DNA from: a virus
IMG/VR virus record: IMGVR_UViG_3300024999_000425
Coordinates: 1 to 22,623 of that record
Strand: one strand, 5' to 3'
Length of the DNA stretch: 22,623 nucleotides
This document shows, piece after piece, positions 2,432-19,427 of the stretch. The notes under the pieces are model-generated. The model did no database searches and was not told where the DNA came from. It was given only the letters and a program-made list of their open reading frames with translations. The translations under genes were made by a program, and so were the position numbers. The stretch's first letter is position 1, and each line of letters begins with the position of its first letter.

Positions 2432-3841
2432 ATGAAAGCAACAACTGCGTCATATAATCTCACTTTAGATTTAAATTTAGAAATATATCAACAAAATATT
2501 TTAGATAAACGCTTTAATATTTCTAGGCAAATTTATAATGCTTGTTTGGGAGAGTTATTAAAACGTTATAAAATGTTACAACATGATAAAGAATATCAAG
2601 AAATTGTTGAAATGACTAAATCAAAAAAGAGAAATAATTTATTTAAGCAATTAAATCAAAAATATAAGCTTAATGAATATTCTTTGCATGAATTTGTTAA
2701 ACCAATGCAACATCATTTTAATAAAAATATAGATGCTTTTACTGCTCAAAAACTTGCCACTAGAGCGTGGAAATCTTTTGAGAAATTAATGTATCATCAA
2801 GCCAAGAAAGTTAATTTTAAAAGATTTGGTGAAATAGATTCTATTGAAGGAAAAGATAATAAAACTGGAATCAAATTTAGAAATAATCAAATCATTTGGA
2901 AAGGACTTAATATTAAAGTCAACGTAGATAGAAATGATACTTATGCTCAAATAGCAATACAAGATAGAGTTAAATATTGTCGCATTGTTCGTAAGGAAAT
3001 TAGAGGGAAAATTAAATATTATCTTCAGCTTATTTTAGAGGGAATTCCTCCCATCAAGATTTATAAAAATACTGGAGAAATAAAAAATTATACTAAAGAT
3101 GGGGAAGTCGGTTTAGATATTGGCATCTCTACATTAGCGTTGGTGTCAGATGATAAAGTAAGTTTATTAGAGTTTTGCAATGGGTTAGATAATTTAGATA
3201 AAACTAAGCGTAAAATTCAAAGAAAAATGGATCGAAGTAAACGTGCCACAAATCCCAATAAATTTAATGAAAATGGAACAATCAAAAAAGGCAATAAAGA
3301 TAAATGGATTTTCTCTAATCATTACAAAAGGATTAGAAGTGAATTAAAGGAAATTCAAAGAAAGATTGCTTCCAAACGTAAAATAGAACATGAAATATTA
3401 GCAAACTCCATCTTAGAGCAAGGGGGTATAATCAAAGTTGAAACAATGAACTATAAAGGATTACAAAAAGGAAGATATGGAAAGAGGATGGGATTAAAAG
3501 CTCCTAGTATGTTTTTAACTATTTTGAATAGAAAACTTAAATATCAAGATAAAGAATTATTAAAAGTAAATGCTTGGACAGTTAAAGCAAGTCAATATAA
3601 TCCATTGGATGATACTTATATTAAAAAGCCATTATCTCAGAGGTGGCAAATATTAAGTAACGATATTAAAATTCAACGAGATATATTTTCAGCTTGGTTG
3701 ATTAAAAACGTTAAAGATGATCTTCAAAAAGTTGATAGACAAAAATGTTTAGATAGTTTTACAAAGTTTTATAGTTTATATAAAATTGAGGAAAATAGGT
3801 TAAAACAGTGTACTGGATTAATTAGTAGTATGGGATTTTAG
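2432..3841 (+). CDS. tnpB: TnpB, RNA-guided RuvC nuclease of IS200/IS605 elements
   Basis: Ancestral Cas12-type nuclease that uses an omega-RNA from the element's right end to cut DNA next to a TAM. It is 469 aa, near the upper normal range for TnpB. The RuvC triad is visible: D229 in GLDIGISTLA, E337 in KVETMNYKGL and D417 in IQRDIFSAWLI. The usual four-cysteine zinc ribbon before the last Asp is missing and is replaced by a stretch with ASQYNP and KKPLSQRW. I recognise this pattern from a Firmicutes TnpB subfamily, so it need not mean inactivity. The C-terminus, LKQCTGLISSMGF, is also typical of that subfamily. AAGGAGGTGG lies 5-6 bp before ATG 2432. With the triad intact, it does not look like a dead TnpB-derived repressor (TldR). 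Confidence 0.9.
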   Translation: MKATTASYNLTLDLNLEIYQQNILDKRFNISRQIYNACLGELLKRYKMLQHDKEYQEIVEMTKSKKRNNLFKQLNQKYKLNEYSLHEFVKPMQHHFNKNIDAFTAQKLATRAWKSFEKLMYHQAKKVNFKRFGEIDSIEGKDNKTGIKFRNNQIIWKGLNIKVNVDRNDTYAQIAIQDRVKYCRIVRKEIRGKIKYYLQLILEGIPPIKIYKNTGEIKNYTKDGEVGLDIGISTLALVSDDKVSLLEFCNGLDNLDKTKRKIQRKMDRSKRATNPNKFNENGTIKKGNKDKWIFSNHYKRIRSELKEIQRKIASKRKIEHEILANSILEQGGIIKVETMNYKGLQKGRYGKRMGLKAPSMFLTILNRKLKYQDKELLKVNAWTVKASQYNPLDDTYIKKPLSQRWQILSNDIKIQRDIFSAWLIKNVKDDLQKVDRQKCLDSFTKFYSLYKIEENRLKQCTGLISSMGF

Positions 3842-6311: not shown

Positions 6312-6386
6312 GCTGGATTAGCTCAGTGGTAGAGCAGTTGCCTTGTAAGCATCAGGCCATCAGTCCGAATCTGATATCCAGCTCCA
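6312..6386 (+). tRNA. tRNA-Thr (anticodon UGU), CCA encoded
   Basis: Cloverleaf read by eye. The acceptor stem is GCTGGAT/ATCCAGC with seven pairs. The D arm is GCTC-AGTGGTA-GAGC. The anticodon loop CTTGTAA gives UGU, decoding ACA, a codon frequent in this AT-rich phage. The T stem is ATCAG/CTGAT. G1-C72 and C2-G71, important threonine identity pairs, are present, and CCA is encoded at 6384-6386. Two oddities: a U-U mismatch at the second pair of the anticodon stem (GTTGC/GCATC), and a T loop of TCCGAAT, in which C replaces the nearly invariant U55. It may be a functional but relaxed phage tRNA, or one that is decaying. Confidence 0.9.
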
Positions 6387-11549: not shown

Positions 11550-12041
11550 ATGGCATTAGACAAAATCAAATTCAAAGAGATTATCAATGAGACAACAAAT
11601 GAAACTTCATATCAAATAAACAATAAATTCGTCACAAAAGAAATATACGATTCAATCGAGCAAGATGACTCACTATATATCATGCCACCACTCCCTAAAA
11701 TGAATGGAAGTCCTGAAAATAGCAATTCTCCCAAACCTAGTAATGTCACAAATATCAATAAATATAATTCTAATGATTCCGAATATGAGTCTAATGAAGA
11801 ATGCGATTGCCCTCAATGTCAAGAATTGATGGACATAATTTATACAATTAGAGAAATGGATGATTATGAAGCAAAGGAATTATTAACTAATTACATAGAC
11901 GCAATAAAAACAAAGACTGGTTTAGAAACATCTATCGAAATATATAGTCAACTTGGTAATGGAATGATTAAGGTTTCTGCTCAGTTAGATGTGCAATTAG
12001 ATAATTTTATGAGTCAATTTGATGTTGTTGAAGAAGAATAA
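11550..12041 (+). CDS. Phage protein of unknown function with a CxxC motif
   Basis: 163 aa, ATG start; the upstream GATCTATGAGGATAATTTT contains a modest GAGGAT site. It has three parts: an N-terminal domain (MALDKIKFKEIINETTNETSYQINN), a Pro/Asn/Ser-rich linker (about 48-85) and a C-terminal helical part beginning CDCPQCQELMDIIYTI. Two or three cysteines may bind a metal, alone or in a dimer. The end, VSAQLDVQLDNFMSQFDVVEEE, is acidic. No family recognised. It is closely followed by another cysteine-rich acidic protein, so the two may work together. Confidence 0.6.
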   Translation: MALDKIKFKEIINETTNETSYQINNKFVTKEIYDSIEQDDSLYIMPPLPKMNGSPENSNSPKPSNVTNINKYNSNDSEYESNEECDCPQCQELMDIIYTIREMDDYEAKELLTNYIDAIKTKTGLETSIEIYSQLGNGMIKVSAQLDVQLDNFMSQFDVVEEE

Positions 12042-12102
12042 TTGTGGTTTAGGGTTTAGGACTCATTACAAAAATAAAATAATAAAGGTAGGAATATTAA
12101 CT

Positions 12103-12816
12103 ATGCAAATTAATAAACAAAAATATACATTATCTCAAGTTGAAGAAATTATCGACTCCCATATTGAATCCGACACAAATTTTACGTTCGTATGTAATTT
12201 TGAATTAGCTCATTATATCTATGATTATTTAGGTAATGAGTATGATGTAGAAGCAGATTCAATTGAACTTTCTTCGGAAGTAGATGAATATTATGTCTCT
12301 TTAAATTTCTATAAAAATGATATTACTTTTGTTTGCGAGTATGCAAAATGGGATCAAGCAGGAACATATAAATATGATGATGGCGACAAAATTGATTATT
12401 TTGTGTTTAGTAATATGAGTTTTGGAGACATTAGGGAATATTTATCTAGAGATGGATGTATTAGATTTTGTGAATTAATTGATGAAGATTGCATTGATGA
12501 TACAGAGGTTGAGAGTATGGATGAATATGAATGTGAAAATGGTAATGTTGATGAGTATTTAGAAGATGATAATTGTGTTCCTTGTCAGTGTGATGATTGC
12601 TGTGAATCTCGTGGAGAATTTGATGATGAAGATGAATGTTTTTGTCAAGAATGCAATCAAGAAAGAGAAGAAGATTTAATCGATCAATGTGTTGAAGTTA
12701 TCCTTAATGGTTGTACTGATTGTGCCATAAAATGTGTTGTTAACACATTACTTACTTTTAAAAAACTTGGTAAATTAGAAATGAAACAAGAGATGAAAGA
12801 TTTCTTAGAGGATTAG
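12103..12816 (+). CDS. Acidic cysteine-rich phage protein of unknown function
   Basis: 237 aa. I chose ATG 12103 because it has AAAGGTAGGA about 10 bp upstream; the frame is open further upstream to about 12019, but that would overlap the previous gene and has no ribosome site. The N-terminal half looks like a folded alpha/beta domain (QINKQKYTLSQVEEIIDSHI...NFTFVCNFELAHYIYDYLG). The middle (about 150-205) is extremely acidic and contains a cysteine cluster: CVPCQCDDCCES and CFCQEC. This may be a zinc-binding knuckle. The end is a helix (TFKKLGKLEMKQEMKDFLED). The high Asp/Glu content could mimic nucleic acid, as in some anti-defence proteins, but nothing more specific supports that. Confidence 0.6.
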   Translation: MQINKQKYTLSQVEEIIDSHIESDTNFTFVCNFELAHYIYDYLGNEYDVEADSIELSSEVDEYYVSLNFYKNDITFVCEYAKWDQAGTYKYDDGDKIDYFVFSNMSFGDIREYLSRDGCIRFCELIDEDCIDDTEVESMDEYECENGNVDEYLEDDNCVPCQCDDCCESRGEFDDEDECFCQECNQEREEDLIDQCVEVILNGCTDCAIKCVVNTLLTFKKLGKLEMKQEMKDFLED

Positions 12817-12878: not shown

Positions 12879-12967
12879 TCTTGTGTAACAAAATAAGTTA
12901 TACAAATAAGGTAGTGTCTTACCACTAAATATTGGGTCATGTCCTACCATGAGAAAAGGAGAAATAT

Positions 12968-14077
12968 ATGATAACTAAAGAATTATTAAACAAAAACAGA
13001 GTATTAACTATGTCAAATAATAGAAAATGTGATTATCTAATTGTAGATGTATCTGTCACCACAGGAAATAATAGAGATATTACAACTATGATGGCAATTA
13101 ATACACAAGGAAATAGAAAAGATATATTAGTTATAAAAACATTTATAGGAAAATCATTTGCAGAACTTGTAGATGAAGCATATTGGTTGTGCAACGAATT
13201 TGGAATACAGATTATTTTAGCAGACAAATCAGGTATGGGGTTAGGATTTATTGAACAATTTCAAACGAATATAAATCCTAATAATGTTTCTATAAGAGCA
13301 TTAGATGGAAGAAAAATATATCAAAATATAGATATCAATGAAATAAAGAAAGATTTGCAATATGGAAATTTGAGATTTTTACAAGCACCAGAATTAGCAA
13401 TGGTTAGTTATATAAAACCATTTTTAGGATTATCAAATATTATGGATTCTCATAGAGAAACTAGTGAATTAATTAATGAGATAAATAATCTTGAGATAAA
13501 AATGGAGTCAATTGGACAACCACGATTATCTCGTATTGATGAAACTATAGGTAAATCTAGAGTCAATTGTTTATTGAGTTTTTATTCATATCCTATGAGT
13601 GGTGTGGTTGTTGAAAACAAGGAAGAATTAGATATTAGTTTTAACGAAAAATATGATATTACTAAAAGAATCGCTCAATATGAAGTAATTCATGGAACTT
13701 TTTATAAATATTTATTCAAGTGTATTGAAAATGATGGAATTAAGGTTTTATTTTATCATAATGGCAAACATAAGATAAAACAATTTCAGAATATTACTCA
13801 AGAAGATGATTTTAGGAAATTGTTTTCTAATGATATTAAGAGTTTAAGTATTACAAAAGATGGATTAGATATTGTATTTTTCAATGGAAGCTATATTAGA
13901 TTTGTATTTGGTGGTAAAAATAGTCGTGGACAGAGATATCATTATGCTGTAGTGGATAGTGATTTAGAAAAAGATATTTTTTATAGTGTAATTCTTCCTA
14001 CTTCTGTTTTGTTTGAAAGAGATAAAGATAATATGTGTTTAAAGGATAATTATAATATTGAGACTATTGATATGTAA
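12968..14077 (+). CDS. Stand-alone terminase-nuclease (RNase H-fold) paralogue with an unknown C-terminal domain
   Basis: 369 aa, ATG behind AAAAGGAGAAA. Residues 20-210 match the nuclease domain of this phage's own large terminase position by position. CDYLIVDVSVTTGNN (D27) aligns with the terminase strand carrying its first Asp (351). IILADKSGMGLGFIEQF (D86) aligns with YIVLDLQQAGIAVFERL (D414). LINEINNLEIKMES...RIDETIGKSRV (D191) aligns with LINESVNLEY...RRDRYTSNSY (D568). The acidic triad is therefore complete, but there is no ATPase domain. Residues 210-369 form a separate beta-rich domain (HGTFYKYLFKCIEN...GLDIVFFNGSYIRFVFGGKN) that I do not recognise. It lies in the same orientation upstream of the terminase genes. 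It may be an accessory packaging nuclease, a resolvase-like enzyme or a regulator. Confidence 0.65.
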   Translation: MITKELLNKNRVLTMSNNRKCDYLIVDVSVTTGNNRDITTMMAINTQGNRKDILVIKTFIGKSFAELVDEAYWLCNEFGIQIILADKSGMGLGFIEQFQTNINPNNVSIRALDGRKIYQNIDINEIKKDLQYGNLRFLQAPELAMVSYIKPFLGLSNIMDSHRETSELINEINNLEIKMESIGQPRLSRIDETIGKSRVNCLLSFYSYPMSGVVVENKEELDISFNEKYDITKRIAQYEVIHGTFYKYLFKCIENDGIKVLFYHNGKHKIKQFQNITQEDDFRKLFSNDIKSLSITKDGLDIVFFNGSYIRFVFGGKNSRGQRYHYAVVDSDLEKDIFYSVILPTSVLFERDKDNMCLKDNYNIETIDM

Positions 14078-14287: not shown

Positions 14288-14983
14288 ATGTTAGAGAAAA
14301 TAATTGGAGTTTACGAAATTAAAAATCTAGTAAATGGTAAGTATTACATAGGTAGTAGTAATAATGTTAAGAGAAGATGGAAAGAACATGTAAATCAATT
14401 AAATAGTAGTAATCATCATAACATGTATTTACAAAATTCATGGAATAAATATGGTGAAGAAAATTTTAGATTTCAAATTCTAGAATATGTGAATAACGAA
14501 AAATTTTTAAGAGAAGCTGAAGAACAATGGATACATAATCTAAAGTCTTATGAAAGAGAAGTTGGATATAATATTTCTATTTATACAGATTCACCATTAA
14601 GAGGAGTGAAATTAAGAGAAGAAACAATTAATAAATTAAAAAATAAAATATTTACAAAACAGCATAAATCAAATATAAGCAAGGCAAAAAAAGATAAGAA
14701 ATTAACTAAAGAACACAAGAGCAATATTAGTGATGGATTAACAGGAAGAATTTATACAACAGAAGCAAGAAAGAATATGAGTAAAGCACAACAAGGAGAT
14801 AACCATCCAAATAATAAGTTAACAAAAAAAGATGTTATATTAATAAAGAGATTATTAAAAGAAGATTTGACAAATATTGAGATAGCGGAAATATTTAAAA
14901 TATCACCTAAAACTATATCGGCAATAAAAACTGGTAGAAGGTGGAGTTGTGTTACAGAAAAGGATTTAGAAGAAGTTAGTTAG
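14288..14983 (+). CDS. Free-standing GIY-YIG homing endonuclease
   Basis: 231 aa, ATG after AAAGAAGGAA. The nuclease domain (1-95) has IIGVYEIKN and YYIGSS (the GIY and YIG halves), the catalytic Arg in VKRRWKEH, the metal-binding Glu in EAEEQWI and Asn in GYNIS. Two or three NUMOD3-like repeats follow (KQHKSNISKAKK, KEHKSNISDGLTG, EARKNMSKAQQGDNHPN), then a helix-turn-helix, DLTNIEIAEIFKISPKTISAIKTGRRW. The repeats and helix-turn-helix give DNA specificity. No group I intron core surrounds it, so it is a free-standing (Seg-like) element placed between a terminator and the terminase genes. It is unlike the intron-borne GIY-YIG enzyme at the left end in its DNA-binding tail, so the two probably arrived separately. 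Confidence 0.9.
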   Translation: MLEKIIGVYEIKNLVNGKYYIGSSNNVKRRWKEHVNQLNSSNHHNMYLQNSWNKYGEENFRFQILEYVNNEKFLREAEEQWIHNLKSYEREVGYNISIYTDSPLRGVKLREETINKLKNKIFTKQHKSNISKAKKDKKLTKEHKSNISDGLTGRIYTTEARKNMSKAQQGDNHPNNKLTKKDVILIKRLLKEDLTNIEIAEIFKISPKTISAIKTGRRWSCVTEKDLEEVS

Positions 14984-15020: not shown

Positions 15021-15986
15021 GTGAGACCTATACCTAGAGTTGGAAAAACAATAAAAGAACCTAAGTTAAATATTCCTGAGAAAATATATTGTAGAGTATG
15101 TGAAGATTATAAAGCACCCTCTGCATTCTATGAGTGTACAAATCCTATGATTGATAAAAATGGTTATATGAGTGTGTGTCGAGACCACTGCAATGAGATA
15201 TTTGACAACTATTTTTCTATATATAATAGTTTAGAAGTTTCCTTAAAATTAACTTGTCAAGATTTAGATGTTAGATATAGTGAAGAATCTTTAAAACAAG
15301 CACAAACACACATGGAAAGTTTAATGACAAAAGGTAAAAATGCAACAAAATTATTTGGATATTATAAAAGCAAACTCAGTTCAACAAATAAAAGCAATGA
15401 AAAAATGGAGTCGTTTAGGTACAAAGATAGTAATTTTCTAAGACAAGAAAATATTGATATCGTAAACGAAGAAGTAGATGACGATTTAGTGTTATTTTGG
15501 GGCAAAAGTTTCATAATTGATGATTATATTTTTCTAGAAGCAGAACTATCAGCATGGAAAGAAACTCATAAATGCGATAATCAAGCAGAAATAACTTTAT
15601 TAAGAGAAATTTGTATTAAAATACTTGAAATTAGACAAGCAAGAGATAAAGGCGATGGCGTTGGAGGTCTTCAAAAAGAATTACAAGACTTGTTAAAAAC
15701 AGCATCCCTTGACCCTGCAAAAGCCAATGCAGCGAGTGCAGGAAAATCGCACGATTGTTTTGGTAAATGGGTTAAAGATATTGAACAATTTAAACCTGCT
15801 GAGTGGTTTGAAGATCAAGAAAAATACAAAGATATGGATGGATTTATTCCATATATTAAAAATTATATAGTTAGGCCAATTGAAAATTTTATAACTGGTG
15901 TTAGAAATTTTGTTGTCGATGATAGTATTGATGCAGATTTAGATAGTGTTGATGTTGGAAATAATGACGGTGATTATAATGGGTAG
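15021..15986 (+). CDS. terS: Terminase small subunit
   Basis: 321 aa. It recognises phage DNA and brings it to the large subunit for packaging. I know this form from Firmicutes phages: an N-terminal zinc motif (YCRVCEDYK...YMSVCRDHC), a helical middle, the stretch LVLFWGKSFIIDDYIFLEAELSAWKE and a C-terminal part with LQKELQDLLKTASLDPAKAN and GKWVKDIEQFKPAEWFED. The GTG at 15021 lies inside the ribosome site AAAGAGGTGAG, which leaves no spacer. ATA 15030 (giving IPRVGKTIKE) is spaced better and may be the real start. The gene overlaps the large terminase by 8 bp, so the two are translationally coupled. Confidence 0.85.
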   Translation: MRPIPRVGKTIKEPKLNIPEKIYCRVCEDYKAPSAFYECTNPMIDKNGYMSVCRDHCNEIFDNYFSIYNSLEVSLKLTCQDLDVRYSEESLKQAQTHMESLMTKGKNATKLFGYYKSKLSSTNKSNEKMESFRYKDSNFLRQENIDIVNEEVDDDLVLFWGKSFIIDDYIFLEAELSAWKETHKCDNQAEITLLREICIKILEIRQARDKGDGVGGLQKELQDLLKTASLDPAKANAASAGKSHDCFGKWVKDIEQFKPAEWFEDQEKYKDMDGFIPYIKNYIVRPIENFITGVRNFVVDDSIDADLDSVDVGNNDGDYNG

Positions 15987-17787
15987 ATCGTATAGTAAAT
16001 TTGAAAATAATTTTAGTAAATATGCTGGTCATAGTGATCAATCTAGAGCACCAAAAACAATGATTAAAGATAAGGAAATAAGTGAACAACGACAAGATAA
16101 TTTAATAGACTGGATTACATTTTATCGCCGTAATGTACATCGCTTTATACAACACTATTATTCAATTCAACTCTATTGGTATCAGGTTTTATGGATTTAT
16201 TTTATGAGTATTTCAGAAAACTTTGTTACAATAGCGTCAAGAGCAGCAGCAAAAAGTTGGTTGATCGCCGTATTAGCATATGCCCGTGGCAGTCTTTACC
16301 CGAATTCTGAAATTGTGATCGTGGCGACAACTTTAAAACAAGCCTCTATTATTTTTGGGAAAATGGCAAGATTAAGAGATGATTACCCAAATATAGCAAG
16401 AGAAATAAAGACTTTTTCAGACACTCAAAATAATTGTAATTGTACGTTACATAATGGCACAACCATTAAGATTGTGGCCTGTTCTGAAAGTGGAAGAGGA
16501 GAGCGTTCTACATTTACAATAGGTGAAGAATTTCGGATTATGGATAAAAATAAGTTCGATTCAATTGTTAAACCTTTCGCTTATGCTAGGCAAACTCCAT
16601 ATTTAAAAGATCCTAAATACTCAGGTGTAAAAGTATTAATCGAAGAACCAAGACAAATTCTTATCTCATCTGCTTACCACAAAGGATTATGGTGGTATAA
16701 AGAAACATTAACCACTATAAAAATGATGTTGCAAGGCAAAGACGCTGGTTTTATAGCTTTTGATTATTTAATAGCTATAAAGCATAATATAAAAACTTTA
16801 AAAGTAATAGCTAGAGATAGGTCTACTATGGATTCAATTACTTTTTTAGAAGAATATGAGAATATACCTTGGGGAGAAAATAGTAACGCTTATTTTAAGT
16901 TAGAAATGTTTCAAAAAAATAGAAGTTTAAAGAAAGCATTCTATCCTTTAAGAAATGATATGCTTGATAAGAAAAAAAATCCTAACGACATAAAACGTGT
17001 AGAAGGAGAAATAAGAATTGTTTCTGCTGATATTGCAACTAGAAAAAATGAAAAAAATGACAATACTATAATAAGTTGTATTAGAGCAATACCAACTGCA
17101 AAAGGTTATGAAAGAGAATTTGTTTATCAGGAGGCACATCAAGGGGAACATACTGGAAAACAAGCATTAAGAATTAAGCAAATTTATCATGATTTTGAAG
17201 CTGATTACATAGTATTAGACTTACAACAAGCAGGAATTGCGGTTTTTGAAAGACTAGCTGTGCTTACTAAAGATGAAGAAAGAGGAATAGAATATGAAGC
17301 TTTTACTGTTTTCGAACATAAGTCATTAGATAAAAAATTAATTGAAGAATTACAAGAGAAAACTTTGGGTTTAAATGCAAAACCAGTAATTTATCCAATA
17401 ATGGCAAATTCTAAATTAAATAATGATATAGCTGTTGATTTTAGAGATAAATTACAAAGAAGTATGTGTAGTTTTCTTATAGATGATAATGATGCAGAAG
17501 TATATTTAACGAAACACAATAAAGAATATGCAAATAATAATGGAAAAGATGTAAATATTAATATATGGTTCGTTAAACCATATATTGAAACACAACTGTT
17601 AATTAATGAATCAGTAAATCTAGAATACTCTTTTAATGGTGGTAACATAAAATTAGATACTGTTGGGACTGCTAGGCGTGATAGATATACGTCAAATTCA
17701 TATGGAAATTATTTTATATCATTATTAGAATTAGATTTATTAAAAAATACTAATGATGACTACGATTTTGTATTTTCATACTCATAA
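15979..17787 (+). CDS. terL: Terminase large subunit, ATPase and nuclease
   Basis: Motor that pumps DNA into the prohead and cuts concatemers. ATG 15979 gives MGRSYSKFENN (602 aa); the longer upstream frame runs into terS and lacks a ribosome site. The ATPase domain has a deviant Walker A, ASRAAAKSW (about 87-95), lacking the usual Gly before Lys; this form is common in Firmicutes phages. It also has VIVATTLKQA and a Walker B, TFTIGEEFR, in which the Asp is Glu next to the catalytic Glu. The RNase H-fold nuclease domain (about 345-590) has D351 in VSADIATRK, D414 in YIVLDLQQAG and D568 in RRDRYTSNSYGNYF. The same nuclease domain occurs without the ATPase in the 12968-14077 protein. The start overlaps the terS stop by 8 bp. 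Confidence 0.95.
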   Translation: MGRSYSKFENNFSKYAGHSDQSRAPKTMIKDKEISEQRQDNLIDWITFYRRNVHRFIQHYYSIQLYWYQVLWIYFMSISENFVTIASRAAAKSWLIAVLAYARGSLYPNSEIVIVATTLKQASIIFGKMARLRDDYPNIAREIKTFSDTQNNCNCTLHNGTTIKIVACSESGRGERSTFTIGEEFRIMDKNKFDSIVKPFAYARQTPYLKDPKYSGVKVLIEEPRQILISSAYHKGLWWYKETLTTIKMMLQGKDAGFIAFDYLIAIKHNIKTLKVIARDRSTMDSITFLEEYENIPWGENSNAYFKLEMFQKNRSLKKAFYPLRNDMLDKKKNPNDIKRVEGEIRIVSADIATRKNEKNDNTIISCIRAIPTAKGYEREFVYQEAHQGEHTGKQALRIKQIYHDFEADYIVLDLQQAGIAVFERLAVLTKDEERGIEYEAFTVFEHKSLDKKLIEELQEKTLGLNAKPVIYPIMANSKLNNDIAVDFRDKLQRSMCSFLIDDNDAEVYLTKHNKEYANNNGKDVNINIWFVKPYIETQLLINESVNLEYSFNGGNIKLDTVGTARRDRYTSNSYGNYFISLLELDLLKNTNDDYDFVFSYS

Positions 17788-17819: not shown

Positions 17820-19427
17820 TTGACAAAAAACAATACACCTCAAATAGAAACATCCACCTCCCCTCAATTCTCAACATCAAATGAAATAGAATTAAACTCA
17901 TTATCCTATAATTCATATTCATTTTCAACAGGAAGATTAGATACTGATAATATACCTATGAGCGATTTAAAACAATATGTCAAATATCCAATGATATATA
18001 ATGAAATATTAAGAACTATATCAGAACAAGCTTATAATTCTGATGGTTTGTACTCAAATATTTTGGAATATATGGTTGCTATACCTACTTTAGCAAATAT
18101 TACAACTATGAGAAACAAAACTCCTGAATTTAAAGAGAAAAAGAAAAAGTTTAATCTTATATTAAAGCTATTAAATCACGATAGGTCAACTAGAGACATA
18201 TTAAGAAATTTATATATTTACGGAACATATGTAGGCACACTTAGAGAAACTTTTGCAAGCAATAAAAATATAGATACTGATTCGATTACGGTAGAATCAA
18301 TTGATAGAATTGAAGGGTTATCTCTAGATGATAATTTTATGATTCAACCATTGGATTTAGATTATTGCAAGATAATTGGATTTCAAAATAATATATCTAT
18401 TGCTGCTTTTGATATGATATATTTCGATCAATTCAAATTTGGTGGTTTAGTAAATGAAATAAAAAATTTTCCGAAAGAGTTTATGAAAGCATATATGTCA
18501 TACAAGAAAGACGCGAGTAAAAGATGGTTTATTCTTGATTATAGAAAAACTATTGCATTAAAATCTAAATCAAAAGAGGATGAACCATATGGTAGACCTC
18601 TAGGTTTGTCTGCGTTCAAAGATATGAAAGCAAGTAGTGATTATAACGATAGTCAATATCAACTTATTAGTGAATTAGCAAGCAGTATATACTACCTTGT
18701 CTTACCCAGTGGGGAAAAAACTGGCTCTTGCTCATTAAATTCTACTCAGCAAAAAGAAGTTATTGAGGCTTTTAAAAATGCAGTAAAAGTTAATACAAGT
18801 GGAGAAAACGCCAAAATCTCAACCCTCAGTTTAGCACCGGGGACTGAAATAAGTAGGTTAAGTAAAGATTCTTCATTAATCAAGGACACATTGAGTGACG
18901 AGAACATGAAGAAAATTTCTACAAGTCTTGGTTTTGCTAGTTCTGCTTTAAATGCTGAAAGTTCTGGTGGAAGTTCATATGCAAATTTAGCTGTAAATTT
19001 AGATTTAGTATCATCCCAAGTATTTCAATCTGTAAATGAAATAGCTAGAGAATATACCAGAGTAATTAATGAATTATTAGGTATTAAGCCAAAGGATTAT
19101 ATAGACATTAAGTACCTGCCTATTTCTTGGTTAAATAAGGATGATATGTTTGAGAAAGCACAATCTTTGTATACTCAAGGAAAAGGTAGCTTAAAATTCT
19201 GGATCGCCACTACGGGCATCAATATCGAAGACTACTTAAGTCTAATGGATGAAGAGTTAGAAGAAGATTTTGAAAACAAGTACCCTGTTCATTTAACATC
19301 GGCAACTTTTTCAGGAAAAGATGAGAAAGGTGGAGCACCTTTGAAAAAAGAGAAAGATTTAAGTGTCGGAGGAAAAGTAACTCGCAATAATAATAGCAAT
19401 AATCAAGTTAAACCATCAACAAAATAA
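17820..19427 (+). CDS. Portal protein
   Basis: 535 aa. It forms the dodecameric ring at the capsid vertex through which DNA enters. It is recognised by position directly after TerL and by portal-like features: the clip/stem-type segment MSDLKQYVKYPMIYNEIL, the helical SGGSSYANLAVNLDLVSSQVFQSV and a disordered, polar C-terminus (KVTRNNNSNNQVKPSTK). The TTG start follows AAAGGAGG with an 11-base spacer. The N-terminal 45 residues are Ser/Thr/Asn-rich and include EIELNSLS, the same E-[LV]-N-S motif that is repeated in the downstream protease-scaffold, so the portal tail may be trimmed during maturation (inference). The gene ends 50 bp before a strong terminator. Confidence 0.85.
   Translation: MTKNNTPQIETSTSPQFSTSNEIELNSLSYNSYSFSTGRLDTDNIPMSDLKQYVKYPMIYNEILRTISEQAYNSDGLYSNILEYMVAIPTLANITTMRNKTPEFKEKKKKFNLILKLLNHDRSTRDILRNLYIYGTYVGTLRETFASNKNIDTDSITVESIDRIEGLSLDDNFMIQPLDLDYCKIIGFQNNISIAAFDMIYFDQFKFGGLVNEIKNFPKEFMKAYMSYKKDASKRWFILDYRKTIALKSKSKEDEPYGRPLGLSAFKDMKASSDYNDSQYQLISELASSIYYLVLPSGEKTGSCSLNSTQQKEVIEAFKNAVKVNTSGENAKISTLSLAPGTEISRLSKDSSLIKDTLSDENMKKISTSLGFASSALNAESSGGSSYANLAVNLDLVSSQVFQSVNEIAREYTRVINELLGIKPKDYIDIKYLPISWLNKDDMFEKAQSLYTQGKGSLKFWIATTGINIEDYLSLMDEELEEDFENKYPVHLTSATFSGKDEKGGAPLKKEKDLSVGGKVTRNNNSNNQVKPSTK

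Follow-up and report, generated by a model that had tools for sequence, protein, structure and literature searches.

The window, meaning the whole 22,623-nucleotide stretch of IMG/VR virus record IMGVR_UViG_3300024999_000425 analysed here, contains at positions 12968–14077 an open reading frame of 369 amino acids, which an earlier note on this DNA had also placed there, with an ATG start and an AAGGAG-type ribosome site; we call its product TNL. Downstream, and likewise on the plus strand, lie a GIY-YIG homing endonuclease (HEN) ORF between the TNL gene and terS (14288–14983; Pfam GIY-YIG, 3.6e-13), a gene in the terS position (15021–15986; phrog_3314) that is the counterpart of YonG by position and by synteny with SPbeta, terL (15946–17787), and a portal protein gene (17820–19427; phrog_2739, 7.6e-47) that is the counterpart of YonE by position. 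The TerL is a YonF homologue (35% to SPbeta YonF) with the normal ATPase–nuclease order, and its matches to Pfam TerL_ATPase and Terminase_6C both fall slightly under cutoff. Because the TerL is homologous to YonF and the gene order (YonJ-type exonuclease, ..., terS, terL, portal) is that of yonJ-...-yonG-yonF-yonE, we assign the window by its gene content to an SPbeta-like phage; named relatives have Bacillus, Thomasclavelia, Lysinibacillus, Psychrobacillus and similar Firmicutes as hosts.

The interval between TNL and terS holds a HEN-like ORF in the mapped loci, those of the relatives being other than that of the window, and in several phages without TNL the same island carries antirepressor-type genes (AntA, P22_AR_N, ORF6N). 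TNL itself has no match to a HEN catalytic domain (GIY-YIG or DUF723-type) in Pfam or PHROG, and a PDB sequence search with the single protein returned nothing meaningful. Elsewhere in the window are an IS605 OrfB-like transposase ORF (2432–3841; Pfam OrfB_IS605 E 8e-4, below cutoff), a tRNA gene (6312–6383; Rfam RF00005) and, upstream of TNL, a gene for an acidic, Cys-rich protein of 265 amino acids (12019–12816), which is kept in several relatives and belongs to no family.

The leader of TNL (window positions 12909–12962) is nearly invariant in the family and is built around a 17-nt motif with the consensus GGT-NNTG-NCYNAC-CANN. Two copies precede TNL in the window (GGT-AGTG-TCTTAC-CACT at 12910–12926 and GGT-CATG-TCCTAC-CATG at 12935–12951, plus strand) and in most relatives, and one copy precedes other accessory-island genes. 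The outer bases are complementary in 28 of 28 distinct motif matches across loci, and in seven of seven from a further listing, some of which are possibly the same places as the 28; they occur in four combinations (AGTG/CACT, CATG/CATG, GATG/CATC and AATG/CATT), and this covariation of complementary bases makes each copy a candidate small hairpin. The leader as one large RNA fold was discarded, being not above shuffles (z +0.70). Copies elsewhere stand 13–16 nt before gene starts in the same island, often that of the gene immediately upstream, which suggests a shared translational control with the motif as candidate operator. Other places with the motif are L006 1245, L076 1824, L108 99, L017 3451 and L214–L219.

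The first half of TNL (residues 1–215; 12968–13612) corresponds to the TerL linker and nuclease fold. The resemblance of residues 20–210 to the TerL nuclease, which the earlier note had drawn by eye, is borne out over the N-terminal ~205 residues: against the nuclease of the TerLs of the same phages, hhalign gave 97.0% (E 1.1e-10) with a score of 74.6, whereas column shuffles, of which 300 were run, reached at most 31.0 and the reversed control 13.1. Against whole TerL the value was 97.5% (E 6.5e-12), the match beginning in the pre-nuclease linker, and the LINE..NLE segment, also noticed earlier, falls into line (ETSELINEINNLE / ETQLLINESVNLE). In an AlphaFold model the pLDDT is about 60–85 for the greater part of residues 20–210, lower around 150–162, and the top 18 Foldseek PDB matches are all terminases, either nuclease domains or large terminases (Sf6, HCMV, G20c, SPP1, PhiV-1; E down to 1.7e-5). 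By the hhalign scores relative to shuffles and the terminase matches of the model, the first half is homologous to the TerL linker and nuclease, with a predicted RNase H-like fold of terminase type.

The catalytic triad proposed for this fold (D27/D351, D86/D414, D191/D568) stands in its first two members but not in its third. Asp27 (13046–13048) and Asp86 (13223–13225) align with the first and second nuclease aspartates of TerL and are unchanged in every relative covering them, but Asp191 (13538–13540) is out of register, and three methods (hhalign, hmmsearch/hmmalign and a gapless register scan) instead place Ser197 (13556–13558) opposite the third aspartate of TerL, which is D in all 26 TerLs. 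The scan yielded −0.14 per column with residue 197 and −0.68 with residue 191, the gapless local match of TNL to type-2 TerL around this aspartate reads RIVKTHKRDRATSL / RIDETIGKSRVNCL, and a helix starting at 196 in the model fits the S197 register. None of the 14 family members compared has an aspartate at position 197, which is always S, T, G or L. Residue 191 is D in 11 of them; L016 has N there, and L019 and L020 have K, as does the partial sequence L024. By these alignments the TNL triad is incomplete, with two of the three TerL aspartate equivalents present.

TNL might still be an active free nuclease in which D27, D86 and D191 bind metal and which trims or debranches DNA during packaging, as its Foldseek-supported terminase nuclease fold, the invariance of D27 and D86, the aspartate at 191 in 11 of 14 members and the strong purifying selection on the nuclease half would lead one to expect. 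However, the serine opposite the third TerL aspartate and the change of D191 to N or K in relatives that are still under selection (dN/dS 0.20 for the nuclease half of L019 vs L020, the K191 lineage) speak against it, and we consider it unlikely. Concatemer cutting or debranching, which the earlier note had offered among possible roles, is not supported as the default one, given the incomplete triad and a second half derived from the ATPase. As a counterpoint, D27 and D86 remain, so TNL may have some nuclease activity, weak or altered, and in most family members the place of the third aspartate could be taken by D191 or another acidic residue close by.

This second half (residues 216–369; 13613–14074) had been described as a beta-rich domain of unknown type behind a nuclease-only paralogue; both descriptions give way to a degenerate TerL ATPase core. 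Compared with TerL ATPase, it reached an hhalign value of 97.3% (E 1.8e-11; score 78.1 vs at most 31.4 for shuffles), and residues 249–346 match phrog_15503 at 1.7e-7, a family labelled 'unknown function' that represents a piece of the TerL ATPase and is also matched by the ATPase of the window's TerL; the TNL match spans only profile positions 107–208 of 245. When 14 whole named SPbeta-like genomes were searched with the second-half profile, a single place was found in 13, always terL. The stand-alone model of this half is poor (mean pLDDT 51), and its best Foldseek match, a weak one, is a large terminase (E 0.036). A Pfam TBP-TOTE match in TNL (E 0.012) was dismissed as chance, the same region fitting TerL far better, and the C-terminal tail was rejected as a copy of the conserved DDYDFVFSYS tail of TerL, the TerL tail ranking no better than 3rd to 84th among its own 8-mers.

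Residues 1–203 of TNL correspond to TerL profile positions 301–551 and residues 227–346 to positions 86–207, so that TNL carries nuclease and then ATPase, the reverse of the TerL order. The ATPase part extends from the Walker A strand/helix to just past Walker B, and the N-terminal segment of TerL and the post-Walker B part of its ATPase are missing. The absence of Walker motifs, seen earlier, holds: Walker A is absent from the C-terminal half, the P-loop Lys position being Tyr or Gly according to the register chosen, and the DE of TerL Walker B is D(S/N/T/K/R) across the family, with Asp330–Ser331 (13955–13960) in the window replacing the catalytic Glu in the alignments. TNL thus has both domains of a YonF-type TerL, its first two nuclease aspartates and the NGS..RG.R..VVD region of its ATPase core, but in reversed order and without the P-loop Lys, the Walker B catalytic Glu and the third nuclease Asp; these catalytic positions are gone throughout the TNL family and kept in TerLs.

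At least 16 TNL homologues were found in IMG/VR (L002–L010, L012, L016, L017, L019–L021, L024 and L025/L026), and their identity to the TNL of the window ranges from 48 to 93%; a search of 84,980 bacterial and archaeal species genomes brought up no homologue. TNL is a conserved gene under purifying selection in both halves and, as the earlier note had argued from the triad, not a pseudogene: the frame is intact, and codon comparison gave dN/dS values of about 0.1–0.5 overall, 0.10–0.26 in the first half and about 0.14–0.47 in the second, so that constraint on the nuclease half equals or exceeds that on the ATPase half. Synonymous divergence is unequal between the halves (dS 0.83 and 0.28 for window/L003, 0.43 and 0.86 for window/L004), which suggests recombination between them. 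The same values bear on whether TNL is a by-product of terminase cassette exchange, in which remnants of terL would have survived by chance, caught between an incoming terS–terL and a homing endonuclease. TerL types at the same position do differ by up to about 80%, with HEN-like ORFs alongside, and one published account, which counts for a by-product, describes nuclease genes at the boundaries of phage gene exchange (PMC10448857); intact frames, the dN/dS range and the almost unchanged 5′ leader argue instead for a selected and probably regulated gene, and leave the by-product very improbable. As an account of what TNL does at present, the by-product reading is contradicted, but cassette exchange may be the origin of TNL.

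TNL is accessory, dispensable and independent of TerL type. Its recurrence beside terS in related phages is partial: of 27 related loci anchored on the portal gene and reaching 4 kb or more upstream of terL, 6 have it and the rest do not (a hand count with duplicates kept). It accompanies TerLs of six or more types, between which identity is 17–39%; between the window and L002, TNL is 93% identical, TerL 24% and portal 45%, and between L019 and L020, TNL is 94% and TerL about 22% identical. L088, whose TerS and TerL are 93% and 96% identical to those of the window, has no TNL copy in its whole 230-kb contig, and L025 and L026 have the second half alone, as a 156-aa gene. These cases weigh further against an active nuclease, which is evidently not needed with a near-identical terS–terL and whose whole nuclease half is lacking in the L025/L026 lineage.

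With the Walker A Lys, Walker B Glu and third nuclease Asp positions lost, TNL is, in our view, somewhat more probably than otherwise a TerL-derived pseudo-terminase with reversed halves and little or no catalysis, a modulator or mimic of terminase of the binding type, and the single-domain TerL-like proteins of relatives (YonH and the 114-aa ATPase-core-like ORFs, below) support this reading. Such a protein, with the TerL linker and nuclease fold first and a truncated ATPase core second, would neither hydrolyse ATP nor cut DNA efficiently, its catalytic residues being missing, and would act through what it binds, not as a nuclease or a DNA pump. Its gene stands just upstream of the packaging genes, and the likeliest role for the protein is an accessory one, to modulate or mimic terminase by competing for something that terminase binds, be it the viral DNA end, a packaging partner, or a factor from the host or a rival by which terminases are recognised. 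As TNL tracks neither TerL nor portal type, a general ligand, such as DNA or a factor of host or rival, is more probable than the phage's own TerL.

Avs1–3-type STAND proteins recognise TerL, and TNL could accordingly be imagined as a decoy for terminase-sensing bacterial immunity that offers TerL surfaces without function. A decoy would account for a kept fold with lost catalytic centres, the accessory distribution, the independence from the phage's own TerL type and the place directly ahead of terS–terL; the Avs3-bound terminase 8dgc is among the Foldseek matches, a mere reminder, as any TerL-like fold would give 8dgc. However, reversed domains should disturb the native two-domain surface, and the open-access literature on terminase, Avs and decoys yielded work on Avs5 only. 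We hold the decoy to be improbable, giving it about the same weight as the active nuclease and ranking both below the pseudo-terminase reading.

A related case is known from SPbeta. The earlier note was right that a terminase-related gene stands beside terS–terL, but the layout is not without precedent: YonH, encoded before yonG, is a truncated TerL-nuclease-like protein in the slot before terS. It matched the TerL nuclease profile (hmmsearch 4e-5, hhalign 93%; Pfam Terminase_6C at E 0.015, below cutoff) and is at least 96% identical in SPbeta, phi3T and SPR, though the SPR TerL is of another type. A published screen, which lists YonH as of unknown function, found insertions in it over-represented after replication arrest (PMC9836290). 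YonH resembles TNL in lying directly before terS and in its TerL-nuclease-like residues ~75–150, with the second Asp aligned; unlike TNL, it has 166 amino acids, stops before the third-Asp region, lacks an ATPase core and begins with an N-terminus of ~45 residues of its own, common to alleles with other C-terminal parts. TNL gave no match to phrog_31869, the YonH family, and direct YonH–TNL orthology was rejected (hhalign 2.8%, not significant), leaving the same slot and the same source.

Relatives also encode stand-alone ATPase-core-like proteins of ~114 amino acids (L171/L172, at 139 kb in a 230-kb relative; L173 2305–2649, which is ORF100 of Psychrobacillus phage Perkons; OP172811 34379–34654). 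Like TNL, they fit the C-half profile (hhalign 97.1%) and have the ARGYR..(V/I)D segment, but they stand alone, elsewhere in the genome, and have no nuclease half. It is conceivable, though we would put it forward only tentatively, that SPbeta-like phages keep terminase-derived pseudoenzymes (TNL, YonH and the stand-alone ATPase-core pieces) as dedicated mimics that act in trans to control packaging or to protect it, for instance by serving host sensors as terminase decoys or by poisoning the terminases of rivals. If so, they would form a layer of packaging control or counter-defence built on dead motor parts, and YonH, the single-domain counterpart in a standard Bacillus subtilis phage, offers a ready genetic test. 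To our knowledge, no terminase paralogue has been described in which both catalytic centres are lost and the domains reversed, nor did one appear in the titles and abstracts of the open-access literature.

Some observations concern the same slots in other phages. Alleles in the YonH slot (L027 7395–7895, which is SPbeta yonH; L032 2867–3391; L190 and L193 4001–4471) have a common N-terminus of ~40–45 residues and three unrelated-looking C-terminal parts: one TerL-nuclease-like, one a P-loop protein (GKGKTT) and one ending in STRGMRYDYK. The Goe14 (P-loop) and L190 types were discarded as TerL pieces (hhalign 2% and 5%, not significant). In L002–L026 and L045–L168, terS–terL cassettes replace one another at one position beside HEN-like ORFs, the TerLs being of six or more types, a candidate case of homing-endonuclease-driven exchange of packaging genes, and two TerL ORFs of about 1040 amino acids (L029 8001–11117 and L089 3842–6961) probably carry an insertion such as an intein.
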